From IMG/VR virus record IMGVR_UViG_3300023184_008416, positions 97,916 to 161,915 of that record: a DNA stretch of 64,000 nucleotides; one strand, 5' to 3'. Below the pieces are notes generated by a model that did not search any database, had not been told where the DNA came from, and was given only the letters and a program-made list of their open reading frames with translations. The DNA comes from a virus. Position numbers and translations under genes: made by a program. Below are positions 26,039-53,616 of this stretch, one piece after another (within the stretch, counting starts at the first letter, position 1; each line of letters begins with the position of its first letter).

Positions 26039-26833
26039 ATGTCAGAAATTACAGAATCTACAGGTCTTAACAAAGTCAACTTTGGAACCTATGGCAAACA
26101 CTTTCAAGAGTGTGTCATGGCGGGTCTGCTCACAGACAATAGATGGGCAGAGCAAATGATGGAAGTATTTGATACAGAATATTTTGAACTCAAATACCTT
26201 CGATTCTTGGCCGAGAAGTACTTTGCTTATTCTCGCAAATACAAGGTTTTTCCTACCTTACAACTTCTTGCAACAATTATTAGAGAGGATCTAAAGACGG
26301 GATCAGACGCTCTTTTGCGTGATCAGATCATCGATTATTTGACTCGAATCAGAGCCAATCCGATGACCAACGACATGCAATATGCCAAAGAAAAATCTCT
26401 TGATTTTTGCAAGAAACAAGCCTTGAAGCATGCGTTGGAAACTGCAGTGGATCAGATGCAGGCAGAAAAATACGAGTCAATCGTTGAGACCATTCGTCGA
26501 GCAGTCTCTGTTGGAACAGTCCCCGCAGTTGGACATGATTTTTTGAATGACATGGAGGCACGGTTCACTCGACAAAAAAGAGACACCATTCCAACTGGAT
26601 TGGCTGAACTTGACAAGAAAGAAATTTTTAACGGTGGTTCCGGTAAAGGAGAGCTGTACTGTGTGATTGGTTCAACCGGGGCAGGAAAGTGTAGTGTACG
26701 TGATACTTATATTCACGTCAGATACACAACAATCAAAATCAATGGAAAATCCTACAAGCCTTGGGACAAGATCAGAACCCAAAGAGGCGAAATTTTTGTA
26801 AGAGACATCGTCAAATCAGACGAGCTCCTGTAA
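26039..26833 (+). CDS. Replicative DNA helicase N-terminal part fused to a short N-intein
   Basis: 264 residues. The first 217 are the N-terminal and early ATPase part of a DnaB/gp41-like hexameric helicase, ending in the Walker A residues GSTGAGK. Then Cys218 starts a 47-residue intein N-fragment with the block A pattern CSVRDTYIHVR, which ends at a TAA. The rest of the intein and helicase is encoded at 27919-29196. Joining the exteins gives GSTGAGK-SHFLT, a complete P loop, and a 481-residue helicase of normal size. Thus the gene is split and needs protein trans-splicing to make active enzyme. The Cys1, the C-terminal HN and the following Ser are all present. Confidence 0.9.
   Translation: MSEITESTGLNKVNFGTYGKHFQECVMAGLLTDNRWAEQMMEVFDTEYFELKYLRFLAEKYFAYSRKYKVFPTLQLLATIIREDLKTGSDALLRDQIIDYLTRIRANPMTNDMQYAKEKSLDFCKKQALKHALETAVDQMQAEKYESIVETIRRAVSVGTVPAVGHDFLNDMEARFTRQKRDTIPTGLAELDKKEIFNGGSGKGELYCVIGSTGAGKCSVRDTYIHVRYTTIKINGKSYKPWDKIRTQRGEIFVRDIVKSDELL
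26690..26833 (+). other. Intein N-fragment (47 codons)
   Basis: Starts with Cys codon 26690-26692 right after the Walker A Lys and holds only block A. It lacks block B, which lies in the C-terminal piece. The break is therefore much closer to the N-terminus than in canonical split inteins such as gp41-1 or Npu DnaE. Confidence 0.85.
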
Positions 26834-26876
26834 CAAATGTGTTTATTGTGATAGGACTTATGTTTCCCACAGCGGA

Positions 26877-27938
26877 TTGGTAAGTCATCTAAGAAAGAAG
26901 CATGGACAAACTTATCGAGATTACAGGACACAAAATGGAATTTTGACAAAACGTCAGCAAAATCCTGCAAAAAACACAGTTAGAGAGAAAATGAAACAAC
27001 GGCAGCAGGAATTATTTCAGCAAGGGCTCGCTGAAGGTTTATCTCCTATGAAGTGTTTAATTTGTGGTTTTGAGTCGATGTTTACGTTGATTAGTCATAT
27101 TTCTATGAAACATCAAATTACTACCGATGTCTATAGGGAAAAATTTGGTATTGAAAAAATACAACAAATTTTGCCATCGCAGAGACAAGTTATAAGATCA
27201 ATTGTAAAAGAAGCAATGAACAGGCCTGACGTCAAGGAGAGAGTTGCTTTGAAAAGGTCGTTTCCATCCGAGAAAAAGCATTGGCTTAATAAAGGTTTTA
27301 CAGATGATGAGGCATCGAAAAAAGTCTCTGAATTTCAAAGAAGCATGGCTCTTCGAGCCGATGAGGAAACAAGAGCAAAATTATCGCAAAAGTCTCGTGG
27401 TAAAAATAATCCAATGTCAATTGAGTCAATCGCAAAAAGACACGGAGTTTCCCACGAAGAAGCGCGGCTTCTTACTCCGGCATGTGGTAGGTCTGGAGAA
27501 TTACATCCAATGTGGGGGAAACGTCACACGCAAGAATCTTTGGAAAAGATTGCCTCATCTCGGCACCTCACAGATCCGACGTGGAGATCAAAACCAGAAA
27601 TTCAGCTTGAGGAATGGTGTAAGTCTGTGTTCGGTGAATCTCAGGTGAAGGCAAACACAAAGATTAGCAGGTGGAATATTGACATCCTCATTCAGGAAAA
27701 AAAGTTAATTGTTGAATTGTTTGGAGATTTTTGGCACATGAATCCTGACAAATTTTTGGAAACTGACGTCAATAAAATCACCAATAAGGTAGCAAAAGAA
27801 ATATGGCAGCACGATCTTAAAAAACTTGAATATCTGAAGACAAATGGTTACAATGTTTTAGTGGTGTGGGAACGTGACTGGAAGTTAAACCAGGAGCAGA
27901 CAAAGGAAAGAATAAAAGATGCTTACAATCGAGTTTGA
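26877..27938 (+). CDS. Vsr-like homing endonuclease located inside the split intein
   Basis: 353 residues if read from TTG 26877. A complete C2H2 finger (CVYCDRTY...H...H) is coded across this start: its Cys codons at 26838-26849 lie upstream, in the same frame, but no ATG, GTG or TTG precedes them before the stop at 26799. A second finger (CLICGFES...H....H) lies near 50-70. A NUMOD-like region follows, then a nuclease core SKPEIQLEEWCKSVFG, NIDILIQEKKLIVELFGDFWH and VLVVWERDW typical of Vsr/EDxHD endonucleases. The 3' end overlaps the downstream helicase gene by 20 bases. It probably spreads the intein or itself by cutting intein-free helicase genes. Confidence 0.85.
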   Translation: MVSHLRKKHGQTYRDYRTQNGILTKRQQNPAKNTVREKMKQRQQELFQQGLAEGLSPMKCLICGFESMFTLISHISMKHQITTDVYREKFGIEKIQQILPSQRQVIRSIVKEAMNRPDVKERVALKRSFPSEKKHWLNKGFTDDEASKKVSEFQRSMALRADEETRAKLSQKSRGKNNPMSIESIAKRHGVSHEEARLLTPACGRSGELHPMWGKRHTQESLEKIASSRHLTDPTWRSKPEIQLEEWCKSVFGESQVKANTKISRWNIDILIQEKKLIVELFGDFWHMNPDKFLETDVNKITNKVAKEIWQHDLKKLEYLKTNGYNVLVVWERDWKLNQEQTKERIKDAYNRV

Positions 27939-28401
27939 CAGTGTGGAAGAACAGATTAAAATCGGTGATTTGTTTGACCAAATTGGATTTGAACAAACAT
28001 CACGTCCCACCGACGATTCTGGTGACTCATTCATCAAGAACGATTGGTCAATTGAAGCGCTTTCACTGGATGGGTATTATCCTGTAGAAGGTTTTCGATG
28101 GACAAAACCGGAACGTAAGATGCAGATCGCTCACAGGAGCATCAACCCATTTATCTTGGAGGATCAAATTCCGACTCTCGACTGCTCACCAGAGCACCTG
28201 CTTTTAAAGAGGGTCTCTGAGACTGAGTTTCAATGGGTGGAAGCCAAGACGTTACTTGAAAATGATGTCATTGTTGGATCCTTTGGTTCTTTAAGAAAAG
28301 TTGTCTGTGCATTACCTCTCGATCAAGCTGATGAACGACTCTGTGATTTGCAGGTGTCAATTGCACACTCGTATATGACAAATGGTATCTTGTCTCATAA
28401 C
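27919..28401 (+). other. Intein C-fragment (161 codons)
   Basis: Carries blocks B, F and G and ends in His-Asn at 28396-28401, followed by a Ser codon. It is much longer than the 35-45 residue C-fragments of canonical split inteins because the break lies upstream of block B. Confidence 0.85.
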
Positions 28402-29196
28402 TCTCACTTTTTGACAATGATTGGGGCCAATGCCCTGCAGGACGGCCGCAATGTTTTGCATTACACCTTTGAATTATCTGAAACTTCTGTCGGAACCCGG
28501 TACGATTCCAACCTTTGTGATATAGATTCCAATGAGGTGATGGATCGTAAAGAAGAGGTCAAATCATCCTATGAGAAGATGAAGTTAGGTCGACTGTTCA
28601 TTAAAGAATACCCAACTAATTCTGCATCCATTTTTACCCTTAGAGCTCACATTGAACGTTTGGATTTGAAAGGATTCAAACCCGATATTATCATTATTGA
28701 CTATGCCGACATCATGAGATCAACACGCCAGTATGATTCTTTGAGACATGAGTTGAAATTGGTGTACGAAGAGTTACGTGCTATGGCAATGGAACTAGGA
28801 GTACCTGTTTGGACAGCGTCTCAATCAAACAAAGAAGGTGCCAATAGCGATGTTATTGATGTTACTAACATGAGCGAGGCATATGGCAAAGCGATGATTT
28901 GCGATGCTATCGTGACAATTTCTAGAAAGGCTCATGAGAAATCAACGGGATGGGGTCGATTATTTGTCGCTAAAAACCGTGCAGGCAGAGATGGATTAGT
29001 TTATCCAGTGCAGATTAACACGGCTCGGTCCAAGTTTACCATTGTGGGTAATGCGGGAAGCCCAGAACAAGTGTCTGCAGAAAATGACGCAGAAATGAAA
29101 AAAGCCTTACGAGATAAATGGAGAGAGTTACAAAGTGAAATGTCTTTTATTCCGTCAACAAAAGGCGAGTTACCTAGAACAGGAACAGATAGTTAA
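27919..29196 (+). CDS. Intein C-fragment fused to replicative DNA helicase C-terminal part
   Basis: 425 residues. The first 161 are the larger intein piece: KIGDLFDQIG, then block B TLDCSPEHLLL (about 86-96), block F DLQVSIAHSYMTNG and block G ILSHN, with Ser162 as the +1 extein residue. From Ser162 on, the protein is the DnaB-type ATPase core: GRNVLHYTFEL, Walker B IIIIDYADIM, WTASQSNKEG, and a C-terminal AKNRAGRDG loop. The ATG at 27919 overlaps the end of the endonuclease gene. After trans-splicing with the 26039 product it would give a full helicase that unwinds DNA at the fork. Confidence 0.92.
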   Translation: MLTIEFDSVEEQIKIGDLFDQIGFEQTSRPTDDSGDSFIKNDWSIEALSLDGYYPVEGFRWTKPERKMQIAHRSINPFILEDQIPTLDCSPEHLLLKRVSETEFQWVEAKTLLENDVIVGSFGSLRKVVCALPLDQADERLCDLQVSIAHSYMTNGILSHNSHFLTMIGANALQDGRNVLHYTFELSETSVGTRYDSNLCDIDSNEVMDRKEEVKSSYEKMKLGRLFIKEYPTNSASIFTLRAHIERLDLKGFKPDIIIIDYADIMRSTRQYDSLRHELKLVYEELRAMAMELGVPVWTASQSNKEGANSDVIDVTNMSEAYGKAMICDAIVTISRKAHEKSTGWGRLFVAKNRAGRDGLVYPVQINTARSKFTIVGNAGSPEQVSAENDAEMKKALRDKWRELQSEMSFIPSTKGELPRTGTDS

Positions 29197-32121: not shown

Positions 32122-32781
32122 ATGCCTTCACAGCCCAACAAGGTCGAGCTCATTGGTGTATACGGGTCCGATGAAACCCATGCTCTTTCAGCATGGACTT
32201 CTACTTCTAGAGATTTAAACGATGACAAGAAAACCAGGATTCCCCAACTATTAAAGATGTTGGCTGAGAATGAGCATCATTCTGTTTTTGAGAAGAGTTC
32301 CTTACACTTTCTTGTCACAACCGATGTTGCTTCACACATCCATCTCGTCAAACATCGCATTGGAGTTTCCGTCAACGCAGAGAGCGCCCGCTATAAAGAG
32401 TTGAAGGATGACAAGTATTATGTTCCTTACGATTGGGATTATGAGGAGCGTGAGAAGTACATCATGCATATGGAAGGATGTCTTCACAAGTATCACGAGG
32501 CTTTGAATAGCTTGGTGGAGAAGGGTGTATCAAGGAAGCGAGCCAAGGAGTCTGCTAGGTTTTATCTGCCGTACGGCAACCAGATCACTGCCGATGTTAT
32601 GTTTAATTTCCGCAGTTTCTATCATTTCGTGAAGTTGAGGTATTCGGTCCACGCTCAGGCCGAGATCAGAAACATTGCGCAAGACATGTTGAAGTTGGTG
32701 CAAGAGACAAAGCAATTCGATCACACACTGACTGCCTTTGGATTGACTGAAGGTGGTGTGTTAAGAGGACCTTTTGCATGA
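32122..32781 (+). CDS. thyX: Flavin-dependent thymidylate synthase ThyX
   Basis: 219 residues. The signature KHRIGVSVNAESARYK (about 76-91) matches the ThyX motif RHRxxSxNxxSxR, with Lys in place of the first Arg. HHSVFEKSSLHF (about 54-65) is the family's N-terminal motif. It makes dTMP from dUMP with FAD, NADPH and methylenetetrahydrofolate. It sits after RNR and overlaps the dTMP kinase gene by four bases, so both act in dTTP supply. A ThyA homologue also exists at 51619 but appears to use dCMP. Confidence 0.92.
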   Translation: MPSQPNKVELIGVYGSDETHALSAWTSTSRDLNDDKKTRIPQLLKMLAENEHHSVFEKSSLHFLVTTDVASHIHLVKHRIGVSVNAESARYKELKDDKYYVPYDWDYEEREKYIMHMEGCLHKYHEALNSLVEKGVSRKRAKESARFYLPYGNQITADVMFNFRSFYHFVKLRYSVHAQAEIRNIAQDMLKLVQETKQFDHTLTAFGLTEGGVLRGPFA

Positions 32782-34654: not shown

Positions 34655-34732
34655 ATGTTTGCAGTAGTCATTGTCTTAACACTAATCCTATTTTTTATTA
34701 GAATTGTTGTTGACATGGATGGAGATGACTGA
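34655..34732 (+). CDS. 25-residue single-span membrane microprotein
   Basis: An ATG at 34655 opens 25 codons: MFAVVIVLTLILFFIRIVVD then MDGDD. That is one hydrophobic span with an acidic tail. It fits tightly between the preceding stop (34652) and the next ATG (34732), with a TGATG overlap, which argues that it is a real gene. Function unknown. Confidence 0.5.
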   Translation: MFAVVIVLTLILFFIRIVVDMDGDD

Positions 34733-35097
34733 TGAACAAGTTGCAAGACATGTGGGATCAACAGAAAAGTTTTATGGATCTTCTTCGGGAACACCGAAAT
34801 TTTCCTGCTTTTCCAGTTGATACGACGACAAAATCAGGACAAAAGATACTCAAAAGTATTACCCATGAATGTATGCATGAGCTTTTTGAAGCCAATCTTT
34901 TATTGAAGAATTCTAAAGAGCATCGGGCAACAAACATTTGTGAATTTGACAGAGAAAATTACGTTGAGGAACTAGCAGACGTTTTACACTATTTTTTTGA
35001 AATTGCAATTTTAAGTGGTATTTCTTTGGAAGAATTGTATTCAACTTATATGAAAAAGGGTGAAACAAATATTGTTCGCATAAAAGAAGGTTATTAA
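34732..35097 (+). CDS. All-alpha dCTPase/dUTPase-like NTP pyrophosphatase (T4 gp56-like)
   Basis: 121 residues. The metal-binding helices are ECMHELFEA (about 43-51) and EELADVLHYFFEI (about 82-94), the E..E and ExxD pattern of the dUTPase_2/MazG group. The C-terminal half, SGISLEELYSTYMKKGETN, closely resembles the end of T4 gp56 dCTPase-dUTPase, including the final GY. Since a trimeric dUTPase is already encoded at 24626, dCTP removal is a plausible main role. That would fit a phage replacing cytosine with a modified form. Confidence 0.72.
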   Translation: MNKLQDMWDQQKSFMDLLREHRNFPAFPVDTTTKSGQKILKSITHECMHELFEANLLLKNSKEHRATNICEFDRENYVEELADVLHYFFEIAILSGISLEELYSTYMKKGETNIVRIKEGY

Positions 35098-39837: not shown

Positions 39838-40794
39838 ATGCGTCATATACTCATCACAGGTTCAGCTGGATTTTTAGGCAGCCATCTTGTTTTGCACCAT
39901 GTTTCGCAGGGTGATCGAGTTTATGGGGTTGACAACTATTCTTCATCAAAACCCTTGTCGCCACATCACAGAAAAATTATCAAAGAATGTGGCGACAAAT
40001 ATCTCTTCTCTGTCGCTGATATTTCAAATCCAGAATTTCCAAGATTGTTCAAGGACATTTCTCTGGATGTCATTTATAATTTTGCATGCCCTGCGTCTCC
40101 ACCACGTTATCAAAACATTCCCATTGAAACAATGATGACTTGTGTTGCTGGAACACGAAACGTTTTAGCAACTGCTCGACACAAGACAACAGTTGTTCAC
40201 GCATCAACTTCGGAAGTTTACGGAGATCCTCAGGTTTCGCCCCAGACAGAAACTTATCGTGGTCAGGTCAATTCCTATGGTCCTAGATCTTGTTACGACG
40301 AAGGAAAACGTGCGGCAGAAGCACTGTGTTATGATTACCGTCACAAACACGGAATTGATGCAAGACTTGTCAGAATTTTTAATACCTACGGTCCACATAT
40401 GGACATTGAAGATGGTCGAGTGGTCACCAATTTTATTGGCCAAGCGTTGAGAGGCGAATCATTGACAATTTATGGTGACGGCTTACAAACACGTTCCTTT
40501 TGTTACGTTGACGATTTAATTCGAGGAATTACTGCACTGGCACAACTACCAGAAAATCCCGGAACCCCTGTTAACGTAGGAAATCCAAATGAATTTACAA
40601 TAGAGGAATTGGCTCTGAAGATACAAAAAATTTTTGGATCTAAAATTGAAAATCGTCCTTTACCGGTGGATGATCCCATGCAACGTAGGCCTGATATTTC
40701 AGTCGCTAAAAAGTTATTCAATTGGGAACCGGTCGTTCAATTAGACGAAGGCCTATATAAGACTATAGAATATTTCAAAAGTATCAACGTTTAA
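39838..40794 (+). CDS. UDP-glucuronate decarboxylase-like NAD-dependent sugar nucleotide enzyme
   Basis: 318 residues. The Rossmann motif GSAGFLGS lies at 8-15. The catalytic YxxxK occurs as SCYDEGKR within YGPRSCYDEGKR, the form typical of UDP-xylose synthases (SDR extended family). TSEVYGDP and DDPMQRRPDIS also match. It would convert UDP-glucuronate to UDP-xylose. With the epimerase at 50664 and the glycosyltransferase at 49355 it may make a sugar donor for DNA or surface glycosylation. Confidence 0.88.
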   Translation: MRHILITGSAGFLGSHLVLHHVSQGDRVYGVDNYSSSKPLSPHHRKIIKECGDKYLFSVADISNPEFPRLFKDISLDVIYNFACPASPPRYQNIPIETMMTCVAGTRNVLATARHKTTVVHASTSEVYGDPQVSPQTETYRGQVNSYGPRSCYDEGKRAAEALCYDYRHKHGIDARLVRIFNTYGPHMDIEDGRVVTNFIGQALRGESLTIYGDGLQTRSFCYVDDLIRGITALAQLPENPGTPVNVGNPNEFTIEELALKIQKIFGSKIENRPLPVDDPMQRRPDISVAKKLFNWEPVVQLDEGLYKTIEYFKSINV

Positions 40795-41141: not shown

Positions 41142-42146
41142 ATGGCTAAAGGTCTCGACGTCGGAACATCATTCATCGTCCTCGCATCCGAGGGCGTCAA
41201 AGGTAAAGTCAACTATAAAGATTTTAGAGATGCATTCTATGTCATCAAACCAACAACGCCCATCGCAACCAAAATGATTGAAAAAGGTCTTACCGGAAAA
41301 GTCTTCGTCAAAGACGCTGACGGATCCTTCATCATCCTCGGCAAAGACGCTATTGAAAAAGCAGTTGAACGTAACGATTCCGCAAAACGTCCTATGTTTA
41401 AAGGAGTCGTTTCGTCCAAGGAAAAGGACGCTCGCCGTATCCTCACTTACATCCTTAAAGAAGTTGTTGGTACCCCTTCAGAACCGGGAGAAAAATTGGT
41501 GTTCTGTGTTCCAGCACAACCAGTCGATCAGGAAGACGATGATTTTGATGTCGGTTATCACGAGGACGTCATTGTTAAACTTCTTTCGGAAGTTGGTTAT
41601 TCAGCCCGAGCCATCAACGAGGCCGAAGCACTTTGCTACTCAGAACTTGATAAAGACGATTATACTGGTGTCGCTCTTTCGTGGGGTGCAGGTATGGTCA
41701 ACGTTTGTGTAATGCTCAACGGTGAACCAGTCGTCACCTTCTCCACAACAAAGTCGGGTGATTGGGTCGATCGCATGGCCTCCGTCGCCACTGGTGAACC
41801 TGACTCTATCGTCCAGGCTGAGAAAGAAAATGGAGACTTCACCGTCGGTGAGCCCAACGAAAATCAAGTCCTCTCTGCCGTGGCTTCATACTACGATCGT
41901 CTTATTGATTATACCACGAAGCAGTTGACAGCCGCGATGGACGGTCACAAATCAATTCCCAAATTCAATGATCCTTTGCCAGTCATCGTAGCCGGTGGTA
42001 CCTCGAAGCCCAAGGGATTTGTGGATCTATTCTCCAAGAAATTAGAGGCAAATGGTTTCCCGTTGCCAGTCAAGGAAGTCCGTCACGCCGCCGATCCGCT
42101 ACATGCCGTGGCTCGTGGTTGTCTCATCGCCGCCCAGGTCATGTAA
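41142..42146 (+). CDS. Actin/Hsp70-fold ATPase
   Basis: 334 residues. Actin-fold signatures are visible: phosphate-1 KGLDVGTSFIVLA (3-15), a connect-like INEAEALCYSE (about 157-167), phosphate-2 VALSWGAGMVNVCVM (about 176-190) and the adenosine motif PVIVAGGTSKPKGF (about 283-296). Phosphate-2 is unusual, with SWGAG in place of DxGGG. Codons are strongly biased to C or G at third positions, like the tail tube gene, which points to high expression. A filament that moves or positions phage DNA or virions is possible; a chaperone-like ATPase is the alternative. AGGAAACAGGAG precedes the ATG; a terminator follows. Confidence 0.75.
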   Translation: MAKGLDVGTSFIVLASEGVKGKVNYKDFRDAFYVIKPTTPIATKMIEKGLTGKVFVKDADGSFIILGKDAIEKAVERNDSAKRPMFKGVVSSKEKDARRILTYILKEVVGTPSEPGEKLVFCVPAQPVDQEDDDFDVGYHEDVIVKLLSEVGYSARAINEAEALCYSELDKDDYTGVALSWGAGMVNVCVMLNGEPVVTFSTTKSGDWVDRMASVATGEPDSIVQAEKENGDFTVGEPNENQVLSAVASYYDRLIDYTTKQLTAAMDGHKSIPKFNDPLPVIVAGGTSKPKGFVDLFSKKLEANGFPLPVKEVRHAADPLHAVARGCLIAAQVM

Positions 42147-47225: not shown

Positions 47226-47822
47226 ATGTCAAAGAAACTTAAAGAGTATAATGCTGATTACGAAAGAAACACTTATGATTCAGATTATTATGAAAATCAC
47301 GTGAAGTATTATCAGAAAGGGATTCCACATTTTGTCTCATTTTTGAATGAGAATTTGAAGTTTGATTCTCTCTGTGATTTAGGTTGTGGTACAGGTGCTT
47401 TTAGTGCACCTCTTCAGGTTGACAAGGACGTTTTGGGAATCGATTTTTCTGTAGGTTCTGAGAAAGTGACCTTTCTTGATCCCAAGAATTTTAGGTTGGG
47501 AGACTTGACTCAGCCTCTTAATCTAGGAAGATCATTTGACGTGGTGATGTCTTTAGAGGTTTGGGAACATTTACTACCACAATGTGAAGCGGCTTATTTG
47601 AACAATGTTTTTGCCTTGCATCCCAAGACTCTGATTATTAGTTGTGCTCCTCCTGGTCAGTGGGGTCGTCATCATTACACGCCAAGAAATGGTGAAGAGG
47701 TTGTGCAAATTATTGAATCAAGAGGTTATAAGTTAAATCAGGCTTTGACAGATAAATTTAGAGTAATTCCTAAATTGGCGTCATTCTATCGTAAGAATAC
47801 TTTTATTTTTGACAAAGTTTGA
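47226..47822 (+). CDS. Class I SAM-dependent methyltransferase
   Basis: 198 residues. Motif I LCDLGCGTGAF (about 52-62), the acidic end of strand 2 LGIDFS, and the SLEVWEHL segment (about 111-118) place it in the small-molecule/sugar/lipid methyltransferase group. DNA methylase motifs such as DPPY are absent. It lies among sugar and nucleotide genes, so a sugar or modified base are possible substrates. Confidence 0.82.
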   Translation: MSKKLKEYNADYERNTYDSDYYENHVKYYQKGIPHFVSFLNENLKFDSLCDLGCGTGAFSAPLQVDKDVLGIDFSVGSEKVTFLDPKNFRLGDLTQPLNLGRSFDVVMSLEVWEHLLPQCEAAYLNNVFALHPKTLIISCAPPGQWGRHHYTPRNGEEVVQIIESRGYKLNQALTDKFRVIPKLASFYRKNTFIFDKV

Positions 47823-47839
47823 AAGGAAAGGAAAGGTTG

Positions 47840-48379
47840 ATGTCTTCTCACCAGACAATCGTTTTTTTGATTGGTCCCGATCGTTGTGGTAAGTCTAATA
47901 TTGCCAAAGAATTATCTAAAAGGACGCAAATTCCTTATTTTAAACCTTCTGAGGAGAAGTTAACGTTCATAAACAATCAATCAAAATTTTTTATGGACAT
48001 ACGGTATGCAGATCCCAGAATGGTTGATTTTTTGAAACAGACAAGTCACAGTGTAGTTTTTGACAGGGGTTACCCCTGCGAGTGGGTTTACAGCAGATTT
48101 TTTAATCGTGAGACAGACTTGGCTGCAATTCAACACGTTGATAGTATGCACTCTAGCATGGGAACCAAGCTGGTGATAACTTATCGTTCACATTATGATA
48201 ATGTAGTTGACGATCTCGATCCTAAATTAACGGGCGCCAAGTTATCTCAGCTTGAAAATTTGTATCGTGATTTTGCTAAATGGTCACAGTGTCAGTCTAT
48301 GTTTTTAAATGTTGATTCTGAAGACCTGAATGATCAGGTTAATAAAGTCATTGAATTTTTGCAAGGTGGTGACAAATGA
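47840..48379 (+). CDS. Second P-loop (deoxy)nucleotide kinase-like protein
   Basis: 179 residues from ATG 47840 with AAAGG before it. P loop LIGPDRCGKSNIAKEL (about 11-26) resembles that of the dTMP kinase at 32778. VVFDRGYPCEW (about 72-82) is the DR motif. It could phosphorylate the 5-modified dCMP expected from the enzyme at 51619, like T4 gp1, but that is inferred from context. Confidence 0.75.
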   Translation: MSSHQTIVFLIGPDRCGKSNIAKELSKRTQIPYFKPSEEKLTFINNQSKFFMDIRYADPRMVDFLKQTSHSVVFDRGYPCEWVYSRFFNRETDLAAIQHVDSMHSSMGTKLVITYRSHYDNVVDDLDPKLTGAKLSQLENLYRDFAKWSQCQSMFLNVDSEDLNDQVNKVIEFLQGGDK

Positions 48380-49294: not shown

Positions 49295-49354
49295 TTAAAT
49301 TTATAAATGATTTTTTAGGTGTAGAGAATTTGTTTTGTGGAGTATGATAATTGT

Positions 49355-50641
49355 ATGACACGTTTATTGATTCAAACGCAACTTTCAAATTATGACACCT
49401 CGGGTCGTTTCATTCTGGAAGCTGATTCAGGGTGGCAGATGACTATGGGCCGTGTTCGACAAATGTTGAAACTTGTGCCAGATTTGTCAATTGATGTCAT
49501 GGGTCCGACAGAGTCACAATTGATTACGGTACCTCAAAAACTAAATGCCGATCTTTTTCAACAGTATGAAGGACGATTGAGGTATGTGCCTCATCACATT
49601 TTGCCAAATGCCCTGGCCACGCGGTTTGATTTTGATTTTAATGGTGTTGGTCGTGCGCTGGATTTAAACGTGAACAACAAATATGACTGTGTTTATGTGA
49701 ATGACCCGATGCAACTACGAAATCTCAAGGTTTTATTTCACTTAAAGGGTGGATATCAACCTAAATTTTTTGTTCATTCACACTTTATTGACAACCCTGA
49801 ATGTCCCAAATTTCCGACAGACACTTCTCTTTGGTTAGGTCAATGTGAAGCTGCCATGCGCGCAGATTATAATTTTTGGCAGTGTGAATCATCGATGAAC
49901 GTTTTCTTTGATTCATTTGCGCGAGTTTTTAACAATGATTCACTTGCCATGGTGAAGGCAAAGTCATCACCATGGGATGATGGTTATTCTTTGGATGAGA
50001 TTAATTCTCGTATTGATGTAAAAAATTGTCGTTTTGATTTAAACGATTTCAAGCAATTGACTGCAGGAAAGGTTGTCATCTTTGTTCCCAACAGAATCGG
50101 GGGAAAAGGAAAATCAAGTGATTATACGAATTGTGGCAAATTTATGTTTGAAATACTCCCAGTTCTTCGTAGATTGAGGCAGGATTTTGTGGTGATTGCC
50201 GGAAATCCAAATCAAAAGTTTTCAAATCAGGAGTTGGTTGAGACGTGCGGTAAAAATGGTTATTTGTCTTTGGTCCCTGATGCATTGACAAGAGATGAGT
50301 TTAAACTTGTCGTGAAGAACAGTGATATTGCCGTTGGTCTTTATGATCAAGACAGTTATGGTGGGACAGTAGCACGAGAGTGTGTTGATTTGGGATGTTT
50401 ACCTTTGTGGATTGACAATTATGAGTATTCGGCAATTGCCAAAGATGCCGGGTATGATATGCTTGCTAAATCCGATTTTTCTGACATTGTTGATACAACT
50501 GATAGATTAATTGACATTGTTCGATCACTTGGCCTATACAAGTCAAAATTTGTTGAAAAGATTCGCAAGGTTGTTAGAGCAAGATGTTCCTACGAAGAGA
50601 CAACACCCTTTGCACTGGAAAAAATGGGTTTATTGGTTTAA
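49355..50641 (+). CDS. Glycosyltransferase, GT-B type (putative)
   Basis: 428 residues from ATG 49355 (GTG 49337 also in frame). The C-terminal half has the pattern of GT-B enzymes: VVIFVPNRIGGKGKSSDYT, LRRLRQDFVVIAGNP, and near the end SDIAVGLYDQDSYGGTVARE, which is like the nucleotide-sugar binding E-x7-E region. The next gene makes a sugar nucleotide. T4-like phages use such enzymes to glycosylate hydroxymethylcytosine. Transfer to DNA is plausible given the neighbouring dCMP-HMase-like gene, but a surface sugar target cannot be excluded. Confidence 0.7.
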   Translation: MTRLLIQTQLSNYDTSGRFILEADSGWQMTMGRVRQMLKLVPDLSIDVMGPTESQLITVPQKLNADLFQQYEGRLRYVPHHILPNALATRFDFDFNGVGRALDLNVNNKYDCVYVNDPMQLRNLKVLFHLKGGYQPKFFVHSHFIDNPECPKFPTDTSLWLGQCEAAMRADYNFWQCESSMNVFFDSFARVFNNDSLAMVKAKSSPWDDGYSLDEINSRIDVKNCRFDLNDFKQLTAGKVVIFVPNRIGGKGKSSDYTNCGKFMFEILPVLRRLRQDFVVIAGNPNQKFSNQELVETCGKNGYLSLVPDALTRDEFKLVVKNSDIAVGLYDQDSYGGTVARECVDLGCLPLWIDNYEYSAIAKDAGYDMLAKSDFSDIVDTTDRLIDIVRSLGLYKSKFVEKIRKVVRARCSYEETTPFALEKMGLLV

Positions 50642-50663: not shown

Positions 50664-51617
50664 ATGAAAGTACTTGTGACAGGTGCAGCTGGTTTTATTG
50701 GAAGTAATTTATCAAAACGTTGCGTAGAAGAGGGTTGGGATGTGACTGGCATTGATGATTTATCCAATGGTCACATACAATTTGTGCCGAAGGGTGTCGA
50801 GCTTTTACAGTCAGATTTTAGTAGTGATAACGTGAAATCTCGGCTTGAAAAGCAATCCTATGATGTTGTATTACATCTTGCTGCTTGCCCCCGGGTAAGT
50901 TATTCCGTAGAACATCCGTTTGAAACAAACGATATTAATGTGACAAAGACTTTAAAGTTGATGAATTATTGTCGTGGCAACGTGAGTCGTTTTGTTTTTG
51001 CTTCTTCTTCGGCTATTTATGGTAACGTAGAAGAACTTCCCACAAAGGAAACGTGTCACAAAAATCCTCAATCTCCTTATGCTTTACAAAAATTGATCAT
51101 TGAAGGTTATCTTAAGTTGTATAATGATTTATATGGTATGGATTCTGCGTGTCTTCGATTTTTTAATGTTTTTGGTTCAAATCAACTTGGTGATTCTCCT
51201 TATGCAACCGCAGTTTCTGCATGGCTTAATGCAGTAAATCGTGGTCAATCAATGAGATCAGACGGCGATGGGTCTCAGACCCGAGACATGTGTCATGTTG
51301 ATAATGTTGTAGAAGCGTGCATTTTGGCTGCAAAAACACCAGTCAAGTTGAATGCAGAACCTTTTAACGTTGCCTGTGGTGAGAGAACGTCTAATAAAGA
51401 CATTTTAAAATATTTGTTGTCCAGATATCCTGAGGCAAAGTATCATGATTCTCCTTGGAGGCCCGGGGATGTCATGCATACACAGGCGGACATAACAAAA
51501 ATTCACGATGTTTTAGGATATAAACCCCTTGTTTCTTTTTGGGACGGTCTAGAATCGACCATAGAATGGTACGAAGAAAATTGGGAATTGGTTAGTGGTA
51601 TGAAACTTCGGACTTGA
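50664..51617 (+). CDS. NAD-dependent UDP-sugar 4-epimerase-like enzyme
   Basis: 317 residues from the ATG at 50664, with AAAGGAA before it. Rossmann motif TGAAGFIGSN (6-15). Catalytic Ser in FASSSAIYG and YxxxK as PYALQKL. DGSQTRDMCHVDNVVEA and WRPGDVMHTQADI match the WbpP/UDP-GlcNAc 4-epimerase group. It could epimerise UDP-xylose to UDP-arabinose or UDP-Glc to UDP-Gal. It is adjacent to a glycosyltransferase and a dCMP-HMase-like gene. Confidence 0.87.
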   Translation: MKVLVTGAAGFIGSNLSKRCVEEGWDVTGIDDLSNGHIQFVPKGVELLQSDFSSDNVKSRLEKQSYDVVLHLAACPRVSYSVEHPFETNDINVTKTLKLMNYCRGNVSRFVFASSSAIYGNVEELPTKETCHKNPQSPYALQKLIIEGYLKLYNDLYGMDSACLRFFNVFGSNQLGDSPYATAVSAWLNAVNRGQSMRSDGDGSQTRDMCHVDNVVEACILAAKTPVKLNAEPFNVACGERTSNKDILKYLLSRYPEAKYHDSPWRPGDVMHTQADITKIHDVLGYKPLVSFWDGLESTIEWYEENWELVSGMKLRT

Positions 51618-51618
51618 C

Positions 51619-52608
51619 ATGAAGAATTTTTCTAATTTCACAGAAGCTTATCGAGAGCTGCTTCAAGATGTCTATACCAATCCAGATTTTGAATCTGCAC
51701 CGCGAGGTCAGAAAATTAGGGAAAAATTAGGTTTTACTTTTAAGTTGACAAACCCTCGTAATCGATTACCATATCTTTTGGGTAGAGACTACAGCGCTGC
51801 TTATTTTATTGCAGAATCATTGTGGTATCTTTCAGGGAGTGATTCGACAGACTGGATTGCAAACTACAGTGGTTTTTGGCGTAATATTTCTGATGATGGT
51901 GTTACAGCAAACAGCGCTTATGGTGCAAGAATTTTTAAATCACATCCAAGAATTGCCCAAGGAATTAAACCCCAATGGTCACAATGGGATTACGTAATTG
52001 ATGAATTGTGCTCAGATAATGATTCTAGGCGAGCGGTAATTCACATTAGGTCGCCACAAGACTCAATTTTGGCACACAAGGATGTTCCCTGTACTTTAAC
52101 TCTGCAGTTTTTTCTACGTAATGATAAGGTACACATGGTCACTTCAATGAGATCTTCTGATCTCATCTTGGGAATTGCATATGATGTACCTGCTTTTACT
52201 TTGTTTCAGGAATTATTGGCTCTACAACTTTCAAAACGTTTAAACAAACCTATTGGATTGGGTGATTACACACATATCAGTAATTCTCTTCACATTTATG
52301 AACGTCACTTTGAAATGGTTGAGCAAATTTTAAATTCTCATTTGTCTTCAAACATTTTAGAAATGCCAGATTTACCGTCTGATGCTGTTCCTCTTGGATC
52401 ACTTTTAAGTTTGGAATCAAAGATAAGAAAAGCCCCTGTTGAGGATTTAAAAACTATTTTATCAGCTTCAACTGAGCTAGGACAATATTGGGGTGATTGG
52501 TTAATTTTACTTGCTTCACATCGTGCAGGCAAATTAAATTCTTCTAAAGAACAAAATTTGTTGTTACAAAGCACAAATTTTGAAGGATATAGATTTTTTA
52601 ACAAGTGA
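51619..52608 (+). CDS. ThyA-family enzyme, probable dCMP hydroxymethylase
   Basis: 329 residues. The TS fold is clear: SRRAVIHIRSPQDS (phosphate-binding Arg137-Arg138), catalytic Cys158 in DVPCTLTLQF, and MRSSDLILGIAYDVPAF (177-193), then the conserved GDYTHISNSLHIYERH. Thymidylate synthases have Asn in LGxPFN; here the aligned residue is Asp189 (LGIAYD). In T4 gp42 an Asp at this place selects dCMP over dUMP. The phage has ThyX for dTMP, which removes the need for ThyA. The product is predicted to be 5-hydroxymethyl-dCMP; a 5-methyl-dCMP product is the alternative. Confidence 0.8.
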   Translation: MKNFSNFTEAYRELLQDVYTNPDFESAPRGQKIREKLGFTFKLTNPRNRLPYLLGRDYSAAYFIAESLWYLSGSDSTDWIANYSGFWRNISDDGVTANSAYGARIFKSHPRIAQGIKPQWSQWDYVIDELCSDNDSRRAVIHIRSPQDSILAHKDVPCTLTLQFFLRNDKVHMVTSMRSSDLILGIAYDVPAFTLFQELLALQLSKRLNKPIGLGDYTHISNSLHIYERHFEMVEQILNSHLSSNILEMPDLPSDAVPLGSLLSLESKIRKAPVEDLKTILSASTELGQYWGDWLILLASHRAGKLNSSKEQNLLLQSTNFEGYRFFNK

Positions 52609-52616
52609 GGTTTGCC

Positions 52617-53189
52617 ATGAATCCTGAATTTATTATTTTTTGCGGTCCCATGTTTTCAACTAAAACAAGCATGTTACTTCTTATGCTTGAAAAATACAAG
52701 CATCAAAAGAAAAGATGCGTTGTTTTTAAGCCAATGATTGATGATCGATACTCTAAAGATAAAGTTGTTTCACACGGAGGAGCTTCGATATCCTCAGTTG
52801 TTGTTTCGTCCGGAAGTGATGTTTTAAAGCATTTGTCGGAGCTTAATGATCAGCCTCAAGTAGTTGCAATAGATGAAGCATTCATGATACCCGGGATTGC
52901 CGAGGTCGCAAATTACCTTTATCGTTTGGGTATTACGATTGTTGTTTCAACCCTGGATATGTCTGCGAATGGAAAGCCCTTTGAAGAACCCCAATTGATG
53001 ATGCCTTGGGCAACTCAAATTCATAAGTTAGCTTCTGTTTGTACAGTTTGTGGTGCAAATGCTCATTACACTCACAAAAAAGTGGATGGTGGCAATGAAA
53101 TTGAGGTTGGGAGTCATGAAATTTATGAACCAAGGTGCTTTTTTCACCACGCAATTGTGAACAATAAACCTAATTTACACCATGAGTAG
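52617..53189 (+). CDS. tdk: Thymidine kinase, type II (Tdk)
   Basis: 190 residues from ATG 52617 with GAGG six bases before it. P loop CGPMFSTKTSMLL (about 8-20), Walker B-like VAIDEAFMI, and a zinc site made by CTVCG and a later C...H match type II thymidine kinase. The Ser-Thr-Lys P loop (GPMFSTKT) is the family form. It salvages thymidine. Its 3' end overlaps the dCMP deaminase start. Confidence 0.92.
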   Translation: MNPEFIIFCGPMFSTKTSMLLLMLEKYKHQKKRCVVFKPMIDDRYSKDKVVSHGGASISSVVVSSGSDVLKHLSELNDQPQVVAIDEAFMIPGIAEVANYLYRLGITIVVSTLDMSANGKPFEEPQLMMPWATQIHKLASVCTVCGANAHYTHKKVDGGNEIEVGSHEIYEPRCFFHHAIVNNKPNLHHE

Positions 53190-53616
53190 ACCTACTTGGC
53201 CTGAAACCTGGATGACAATTGCACGCTCAATTGCCGAGCGCTCTTATGATCCACGTCTGAAAGTTGGTACAATCATTGTTACCGAGGATAACACACAGAT
53301 GTTATCAATGGGATATAATGGGAATTACAAAGGTGGTCCACATGAACCTGAGTCTTTTGAGCTGGGAAGCAGCGGGTTTATTCATAGTGAAATTAATGCT
53401 TTATTAAAGTGCGATTATCACCACCCATTGAAAAAGCATATGTATATCACGCATTCACCGTGTCGATCTTGTGCCAAGTGCATTATCAATGGTGGAATAC
53501 GAAGAGTAGTTTATGATGTACAATATCGTGATTTATCTGGAATAGAGTTATTAAGAGACGTAGGTGTCGAAATATATAGTCTGTCTGAGGCAATACTTAT
53601 TGCAGGTTTACCATGA
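53182..53616 (+). CDS. dCMP deaminase
   Basis: 144 residues. Zinc-binding HSEINALL (about 71-78) and SPCRSCAKCI (about 93-102) plus the general fold match deoxycytidylate deaminases (T4 Cd family). It converts dCMP to dUMP for ThyX. In a phage with modified cytosine it also helps to draw down free dCMP. It is coupled by overlap to genes on both sides. Confidence 0.92.
   Translation: MSRPTWPETWMTIARSIAERSYDPRLKVGTIIVTEDNTQMLSMGYNGNYKGGPHEPESFELGSSGFIHSEINALLKCDYHHPLKKHMYITHSPCRSCAKCIINGGIRRVVYDVQYRDLSGIELLRDVGVEIYSLSEAILIAGLP

Follow-up and report, generated by a model that had tools for sequence, protein, structure and literature searches.

We analysed a 64,000-nucleotide stretch of viral DNA (the window), which spans positions 97916-161915 of a virus record of 161,915 bases that may be incomplete. 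The gene of main interest, HM, lies in the window together with the following genes:

32122-32781, plus strand: ThyX, the phage's own dTMP synthase (TIGR02170 2.9e-29, 102.1 bits, cut-off 87.9)
34732-35097, plus strand: all-alpha NTP pyrophosphatase (dUTPase_2), candidate dCTPase/dUTPase (PF08761 4.6e-6, 27.4 bits, cut-off 22.9)
39838-40794, plus strand: UDP-glucuronate decarboxylase/UDP-xylose synthase (UXS; human UXS1 match)
47226-47822, plus strand: SAM methyltransferase adjoining the kinase gene, of uncertain cassette membership (PF13489 1.3e-8)
47819-48379, plus strand: deoxynucleotide kinase-like protein (kin47), candidate hm-dCMP kinase (PHROG 761, YorR)
49337-50641 (alternative ATG at 49355), plus strand: GT49, predicted GT-B glycosyltransferase of 434 aa (predicted fold)
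50664-51617, plus strand: UDP-sugar 4-epimerase (UXE; PF01370 4.1e-53; best PDB matches WbgU 3e-49 and WbpP 1.2e-43)
51619-52608, plus strand: HM, predicted dCMP hydroxymethylase of the thymidylate-synthase superfamily, MilA-like, with Asp189 (PF00303, solved-structure matches, residue table)
52605-53189, plus strand: thymidine kinase, overlapping the HM stop codon (PF00265 4.1e-38)
53182-53616, plus strand: dCMP deaminase (PF00383 1.6e-18; PHROG 174 4.4e-46)

The HM open reading frame encodes 329 residues; its ATG lies 1 base past the stop codon of the epimerase gene and its 3' end overlaps the thymidine kinase gene. On the 5' side of HM, the epimerase and GT49 genes are followed about 1 kb further by kin47, with two ORFs between, and UXS lies 11 kb upstream. 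The methyltransferase at 47226-47822, which might act on the sugar or on the base, has weak relatives (27-30%) near the kinase and GT49 in two related loci only (L123 and L126). Elsewhere in the window, a DnaB-type helicase extends over two frames at 26039-29196, and an endonuclease-like ORF (26877-27938) separates its halves. By eye, the helicase ends look intein-like (after GAGK and before SHFLTMIG), and the gene resembles a fractured one carrying a split intein. The ORF at 41142-42146 showed weak actin-like similarity (salactin 7.5e-7, below the cut-off), and its homologues lie 5' of DnaE in several relatives.

HM matched PF00303 in Pfam (2.5e-24, 86.3 bits, cut-off 24.3) and was the sole such match in the 161,915-base record, which may be incomplete. 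Family-level annotation (Pfam, PHROGs) gives thymidylate synthase, and the bit score of HM was under the cut-off for each of the seven NCBIfam thymidylate synthase models that it matched. Among solved structures, its best relative was MilA (9.2e-43); the top thymidylate synthase followed at 2e-16 and T4 gp42 at 9.7e-11. In the MAFFT alignment, Asn177 of E. coli ThyA (LGLPFNI), Asp179 of T4 gp42 and Asp189 of HM (LGIAYDV) occupy one column. The initial annotation was therefore correct in reading Asp for the Asn of the LGxPFN motif, as it was in assigning a ThyX to this phage. Asp was kept in all 138 aligned relatives of HM (32 close loci, L031-L062; 57 from scans started on the glycosyltransferase side; 49 more distant), although these rows are non-independent, many contigs having been fetched twice and all having been found through similarity to the HM family or its neighbours. 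Asn stands at this site in E. coli ThyA and in the dUMP hydroxymethylase. Because Asp is present in 138 of 138 relatives, Asp189 is, on this alignment, no chance variant.

According to the metaGPA study (PMC8670742), thymidylate synthases from modified contigs mostly carry Asp177, and the single Asn-to-Asp change turns ThyA into a dCMP methylase. Asp189 is necessary but insufficient to fix the reaction, and therefore 17 active-site positions were compared. HM equals T4 gp42 at 16 of them, including Ser99, Tyr101, Arg137, Asp155, Thr159, Ser179, Asp181 and Gly185, and the sole exception is Ala187 (Arg177 in T4). At the four informative sites Ser99, Asp155, Thr159 and Asp189, ThyA has Pro, Leu, His and the Asn177 by which it is recognized. 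All 15 residues tested were conserved in the 32 close relatives, and the distant rows vary at sites other than Asp189, with Ser99 replaced by Gly in 12 of 138 and Asp155 by Glu or Asn in 6 of 138. The T4 gp42 structure report (PMC6400193) describes an Asp (or Glu) three residues before the Cys, together with Ser-x-Tyr, as the signature of hydroxymethylation, and gp42 needs the residues that match Asp155 and Ser99 of HM for the addition of water. HM carries this signature, with Asp155 three residues before the catalytic Cys158 and with Ser99-x-Tyr101. In the MilA study (PMC5175136), Asp selects cytosine, Lys and Ala select ribose, Arg and Ser select deoxyribose, and the Arg/Ser pair switched the preference of MilA to dCMP. 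HM has the deoxyribose-favouring pair, Arg137 and Ser179, where MilA has the ribose-selecting Lys133 and Ala176.

Since the active-site residues beyond Asp189 also agree with T4 gp42, we consider that HM is very probably a dCMP 5-hydroxymethylase that depends on folate and belongs to a lineage apart from T4 gp42, an activity predicted from the residues. The synthesis of 5-hydroxymethyl-dCMP that had been proposed at the outset gains support from the eight residues named above. The accompanying proposal, that the enzyme has switched to dCMP, is likewise supported by these further residues; on its own the Asp does not fix the product, because RB69-type enzymes, which presumably make 5-hydroxy-dCMP, also have it.

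Other reactions of this superfamily have to be weighed against hydroxymethylation of dCMP. Family annotation alone would give the phage a second thymidylate synthase, a redundant one working on dUMP; considering Asp189, Asp155 and Thr159, and the ThyX in the same genome, we regard this as the most improbable assignment of all. MilA being the closest solved relative, HM might instead be a CMP hydroxymethylase whose product is a nucleoside and not a DNA base, but the replacement of Lys133/Ala176 by Arg137/Ser179, the pair that reversed MilA to dCMP in that study (PMC5175136), makes this only a little less improbable. A dCMP 5-methylase yielding 5-methylcytosine would need one change in ThyA, as the Asn-to-Asp mutant indicates (PMC8670742). 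However, HM has the water-adding Asp155 and Ser99 in the places of Leu and Pro in ThyA, and a methyl group would leave the sugar cassette without a hydroxyl to use, so that we consider a methylase very unlikely.

Finally, HM could be a 5-hydroxy-dCMP synthase leading to pentosyl-5-hydroxycytosine. A 2026 paper reports that the Mosigvirus phages RB69 and NP carry arabinose on 5-hydroxycytosine, which derives from a 5-hydroxy-dCMP synthase of the thymidylate-synthase superfamily. HM shares the superfamily and the Asp with this enzyme, and it stands in a pentose context like that of RB69 and Thanatos. RB69 ORF048c is annotated as similar to dCMP hydroxymethylase, and we presume that it is this synthase. 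ORF048c and four homologues (LC53, Acj9, PspYZU05 and P10VF) keep the cytosine Asp. At T4 positions 82, 145, 171 and 175, however, all five enzymes have Ala, Glu, Asn and Val, and position 94 is Thr in four of them and Met in one. In contrast, both T4 gp42 and HM have Trp82, Ser94, Asp145, Asp171 and Gly175 (T4 numbering). In the five RB69-type sequences (L187:3498-4214 for ORF048c, and L188-L191), the Ala/Glu/Asn/Val and Thr/Met changes fall on folate- and water-site positions, and Ala/Thr/Glu/Asn/Val is a possible signature of 5-hydroxy-dCMP synthases, drawn from these five sequences. Because HM agrees with T4 gp42 at each of these five sites, the hydroxymethyl product is favoured and a 5-hydroxy product appears improbable. 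On the residues, we set aside all four alternative activities for HM. The comparison also suggests a simple annotation test that separates hydroxymethyl-dCMP synthases from presumed hydroxy-dCMP synthases.

Considering that the HM gene sits within a sugar-transfer cassette, the modification probably extends beyond hydroxymethylcytosine (hmC). GT49 had no match in Pfam, PHROGs or NCBIfam, and a single-sequence search with it returned no glycosyltransferase among the matches, BGT included. Its AlphaFold model (pLDDT 80.4, pTM 0.80) resembled GT-B glycosyltransferases over the whole chain (Foldseek/VIA), for example BshA with a Z of 29.2, an rmsd of 3.5, 359 aligned residues and 10% identity, and on this model GT49 is predicted to have the two-domain GT-B fold. 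The kin47 protein matched PHROG 761, thymidylate kinase (6.1e-9), and the YorR profile (1.2e-6), and its fold was closest to YorR (5.8e-7), followed by dNKs and TMKs. UXS matched human UXS1 at 1.4e-85, with the next family at 3.8e-33, and conserves the motifs TSEVYG, YDEGKR and QTRSF, of which we take the TSEVYG, YDEGKR and QTR residues to be catalytic.

The genes of this cassette recur together in relatives. The epimerase was found in 30 of the 32 close HM loci, both exceptions (L058 and L060) being cut off at the end of the locus, and a kinase-like gene was likewise found in 30 of 32, namely kin47 in 25 loci and, in L035-L038 and L043, a member of another P-loop family; L035-L038 each have a homologue (60-65%) of the kinase-like ORF of L043. 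When GT49 was used as the query, 13 loci were retrieved. Each has an Asp-type hydroxymethylase (HM 13/13), while the epimerase is present in 12 and kin47 in 11. Three of these loci come from the contigs of the queries themselves, and HM was present on 10 of the 10 new contigs. Another family of about 345 aa, GTY, is present in 22 of the 32 close HM loci. HM was found in 44 of the 47 loci of the GTY scan and on 22 of its 25 new contigs, 22 of the 47 having already been fetched through HM; the three GTY loci without HM (L151, L165 and L177) reach the contig end. T4 DNA beta-glucosyltransferase, an enzyme that acts on hmC within DNA, was the only solved match of GTY at 0.001 (4.9e-6). Because GTY resembles this enzyme, the slot that holds GT49 is likely the slot of an hmC-DNA transferase in the relatives. 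One GT49 and one GTY query against 50,697 phage records gave no match at E 0.01. Profile comparisons by hhalign, made from shallow alignments, likewise found nothing significant between GT49 and GTY or between either of them and RB69 ORF003c.

Both the transferase and the hydroxymethylase are exchanged at this place. In L035-L038 and L043, a carbamoyltransferase replaces the glycosyltransferase (PF16861 2e-23 in L035; PF02543 in those records), and a carbamoyltransferase of this class acted on 5hmC according to the metaGPA study (PMC8670742). In the phylogenetic tree, T4 gp42 clusters with L121-L124 and L126 with a support of 100/100, so that a gp42-type enzyme fills the place of HM in five GT49 loci, and HM itself falls outside that clade. 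The placement of MilA and ThyA in this tree, and also of L131 and other long rows, was unsure. That both enzymes are replaced within one and the same position points to a single function, namely hmC and its decoration. In L035 (5605-8042) and L043 (7584-9999), the carbamoyltransferase is followed by a protein of 221-223 aa that looks like a degenerate thymidylate synthase by eye, and the L035 copy had no Pfam match. In a distant phage (L010:5298-8753), ORFs that look mutase-like and glycosyltransferase-like by eye lie directly 5' of an Asp-type thymidylate synthase homologue. A scan of bacterial genomes gave 48 loci with relatives of 30-37% identity and therefore pointed to no host.

Compared with known systems, HM shares with T4 gp42 nearly all active-site residues, the expected reaction and a glycosyltransferase neighbour, but it belongs to a separate clade, is about 80 residues longer and has Ala187 for Arg177. 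By analogy, the system would function like gp42 with its glucosyltransferase, though HM is not of the gp42 clade. MilA (5jnh) is the best solved match over residues 3-314 and has the cytosine Asp and a long C-terminal part, whereas Arg137/Ser179 of HM point to dCMP. The RB69 system likewise has a phage-made base from the thymidylate-synthase family, a pentose and a transferase proposed to be GT-B. However, the RB69 literature, where pentosyl-hmC was first claimed, now gives the base as 5-hydroxycytosine, whereas the residues of HM favour a hydroxymethyl base. The candidate sugar genes proposed for RB69 are a sugar isomerase and a fusion that resembles an NTP-transferase, where the window phage has UXS, and the RB69 paper raised Uxs/Uxe only as a possible UDP-arabinose pathway; the RB69 transferase ORF003c has no detectable profile relation to GT49. 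Thanatos phage has a protein that acts in vitro as a UDP-xylose pyrophosphorylase. The metaGPA contigs with 5hmC carbamoyltransferases (PMC8670742) also place an Asp-type thymidylate synthase beside a hydroxymethyl modifier, together with a dCMP deaminase; they differ in adding carbamoyl and not a sugar, although relatives L035-L038 and L043 of the window have the carbamoyltransferase gene. Finally, the pSymB locus of S. meliloti, presumed Uxs-Uxe, has a UXS that is 52% identical to that of the window, followed in the same run by a GalE-type epimerase and a glycosyltransferase; it is bacterial, however, and its epimerase is just 30% identical to that of the window, which is nearer to the hexose/HexNAc epimerases WbgU and WbpP.

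We consider it likely that hmC carries a sugar, and the chances that this sugar is a pentose are about even. UXS was found in 8 of 14 GT49 records, and five of the six without it are shorter than 100 kb. Among records longer than 100 kb, UXS was present in 5 of 6 with GT49 (G022 being the exception) versus 1 of 18 with GTY (Fisher's exact p 0.0008, in a test that ignores relatedness and includes near-duplicate records); L143 and L151 are GTY records of this size in which UXS was not found. UXS is scarce among the relatives searched (5 of 34 records in one set, 9 of 23 in another). It also occurs without GT49 in 5 of 13 UXS records; GT49 was sought in these five and not found, in a search that also covered G013, a record without UXS. 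UXS overlaps GTY in L059, and L043 has UXS and a carbamoyltransferase in the place of the glycosyltransferase, GT49 not being found in its record. In L174 (5379-10966), the genes for UXS, a UDP-galactopyranose mutase (PF03275 4.6e-67), a kinase, GTY, the epimerase and HM are consecutive, each overlapping the next or at most 10 bases from it, and this run is a candidate UDP-arabinofuranose route beside hmC synthesis. In L048 (9995-14766), L050-L053 and L055-L057, HM is followed by the mutase, a BGT-like GTY, a kinase and the epimerase, an arrangement that makes galactofuranosyl-hmC possible. The mutase occurs in 20 of 47 GTY loci versus none of 13 GT49 loci. In a 462-kb uncultured phage (LR756500; L111 and L112), roughly 92 kb separate an Asp-type HM (38%) from a UXS (50%), and a search for GT49 in this phage found none.

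The strongest competitor for the sugar is a hexose on the same base, for example galactose made from UDP-glucose by the epimerase, with UXS feeding a separate surface glycan. On the one hand, the epimerase is equally present in cassettes without UXS, and therefore its substrate may be UDP-Glc/Gal; its nearest solved relatives are of the hexose/HexNAc type, and UXS is not always accompanied by GT49, as counted above. Moreover, a glycan cluster on the minus strand upstream of the window (G000:C1:20250-27851, L012) encodes a Ugd-like nucleotide-sugar dehydrogenase, a GDP-fucose synthase-like (fcl-like) protein and gmd (456.1 bits, cut-off 415), with several further ORFs that look transferase- or methyltransferase-like by eye, and this cluster could be the user of UDP-xylose. 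On the other hand, UXS lies among replication genes and tracks GT49 in the large records, and it shares a gene run with HM in L174 and L059. The Ugd-like gene was considered as a part of the UDP-glucose pathway and rejected, being short, within the glycan cluster and not tracking UXS (4 of 13 UXS records versus 6 of 16 without). Taken together, a hexose is a real possibility, though well short of even odds.

Our preferred reading, to which we give a probability of roughly 0.78, is that the phage makes 5-hydroxymethyl-dCMP, puts it into its DNA and glycosylates it there, perhaps with xylose or arabinose. HM would make 5-hydroxymethyl-dCMP, kin47 would phosphorylate it, and the dCTPase-like pyrophosphatase would trim plain dCTP, because of which the phage polymerase would incorporate hmC. 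UXS would convert UDP-glucuronate to UDP-xylose, the epimerase may interconvert UDP-xylose and UDP-arabinose, and GT49 would move the sugar onto the hydroxymethyl group in DNA. Separately, dTMP would be supplied by ThyX, the dCMP deaminase and the thymidine kinase. Support for this pathway comes from family membership, active-site agreement, and the conservation and swapping of the cassette, that is, from sequence or predicted fold, from which we infer the activities, the virion base and the sugar. Among open-licence PMC papers, a search in which absence weighs little, none was found that ties a phage UDP-glucuronate decarboxylase to hmC, and UDP-xylose, hydroxymethylcytosine and phage together led to the RB69 and Thanatos papers only.

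In summary, we predict that the phage makes and glycosylates hmC by a route distinct from that of the T-even phages, with a UDP-xylose synthase of its own. More tentatively, at slightly less than even odds, we propose an uncultured clade of large phages with a swappable cassette for hmC decoration, in which a MilA-like or gp42-type hydroxymethylase is combined with interchangeable transferases (GT4-like, BGT-like or carbamoyl) and with sugar-nucleotide genes (UXS, UDP-galactopyranose mutase or both). If this is true, different phages would carry xylosyl-, arabinopyranosyl-, arabinofuranosyl-, galactofuranosyl- or carbamoyl-hmC; to our knowledge, neither furanosyl bases nor true pentosyl-hmC were known before as DNA bases. 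The decoration would probably shield phage DNA from bacterial defences. Phages that have exchanged these transferase and sugar genes in nature offer enzymes predicted to decorate the same base in different ways, which would be useful for testing decorations against restriction, type IV enzymes, DNA glycosylases and CRISPR.
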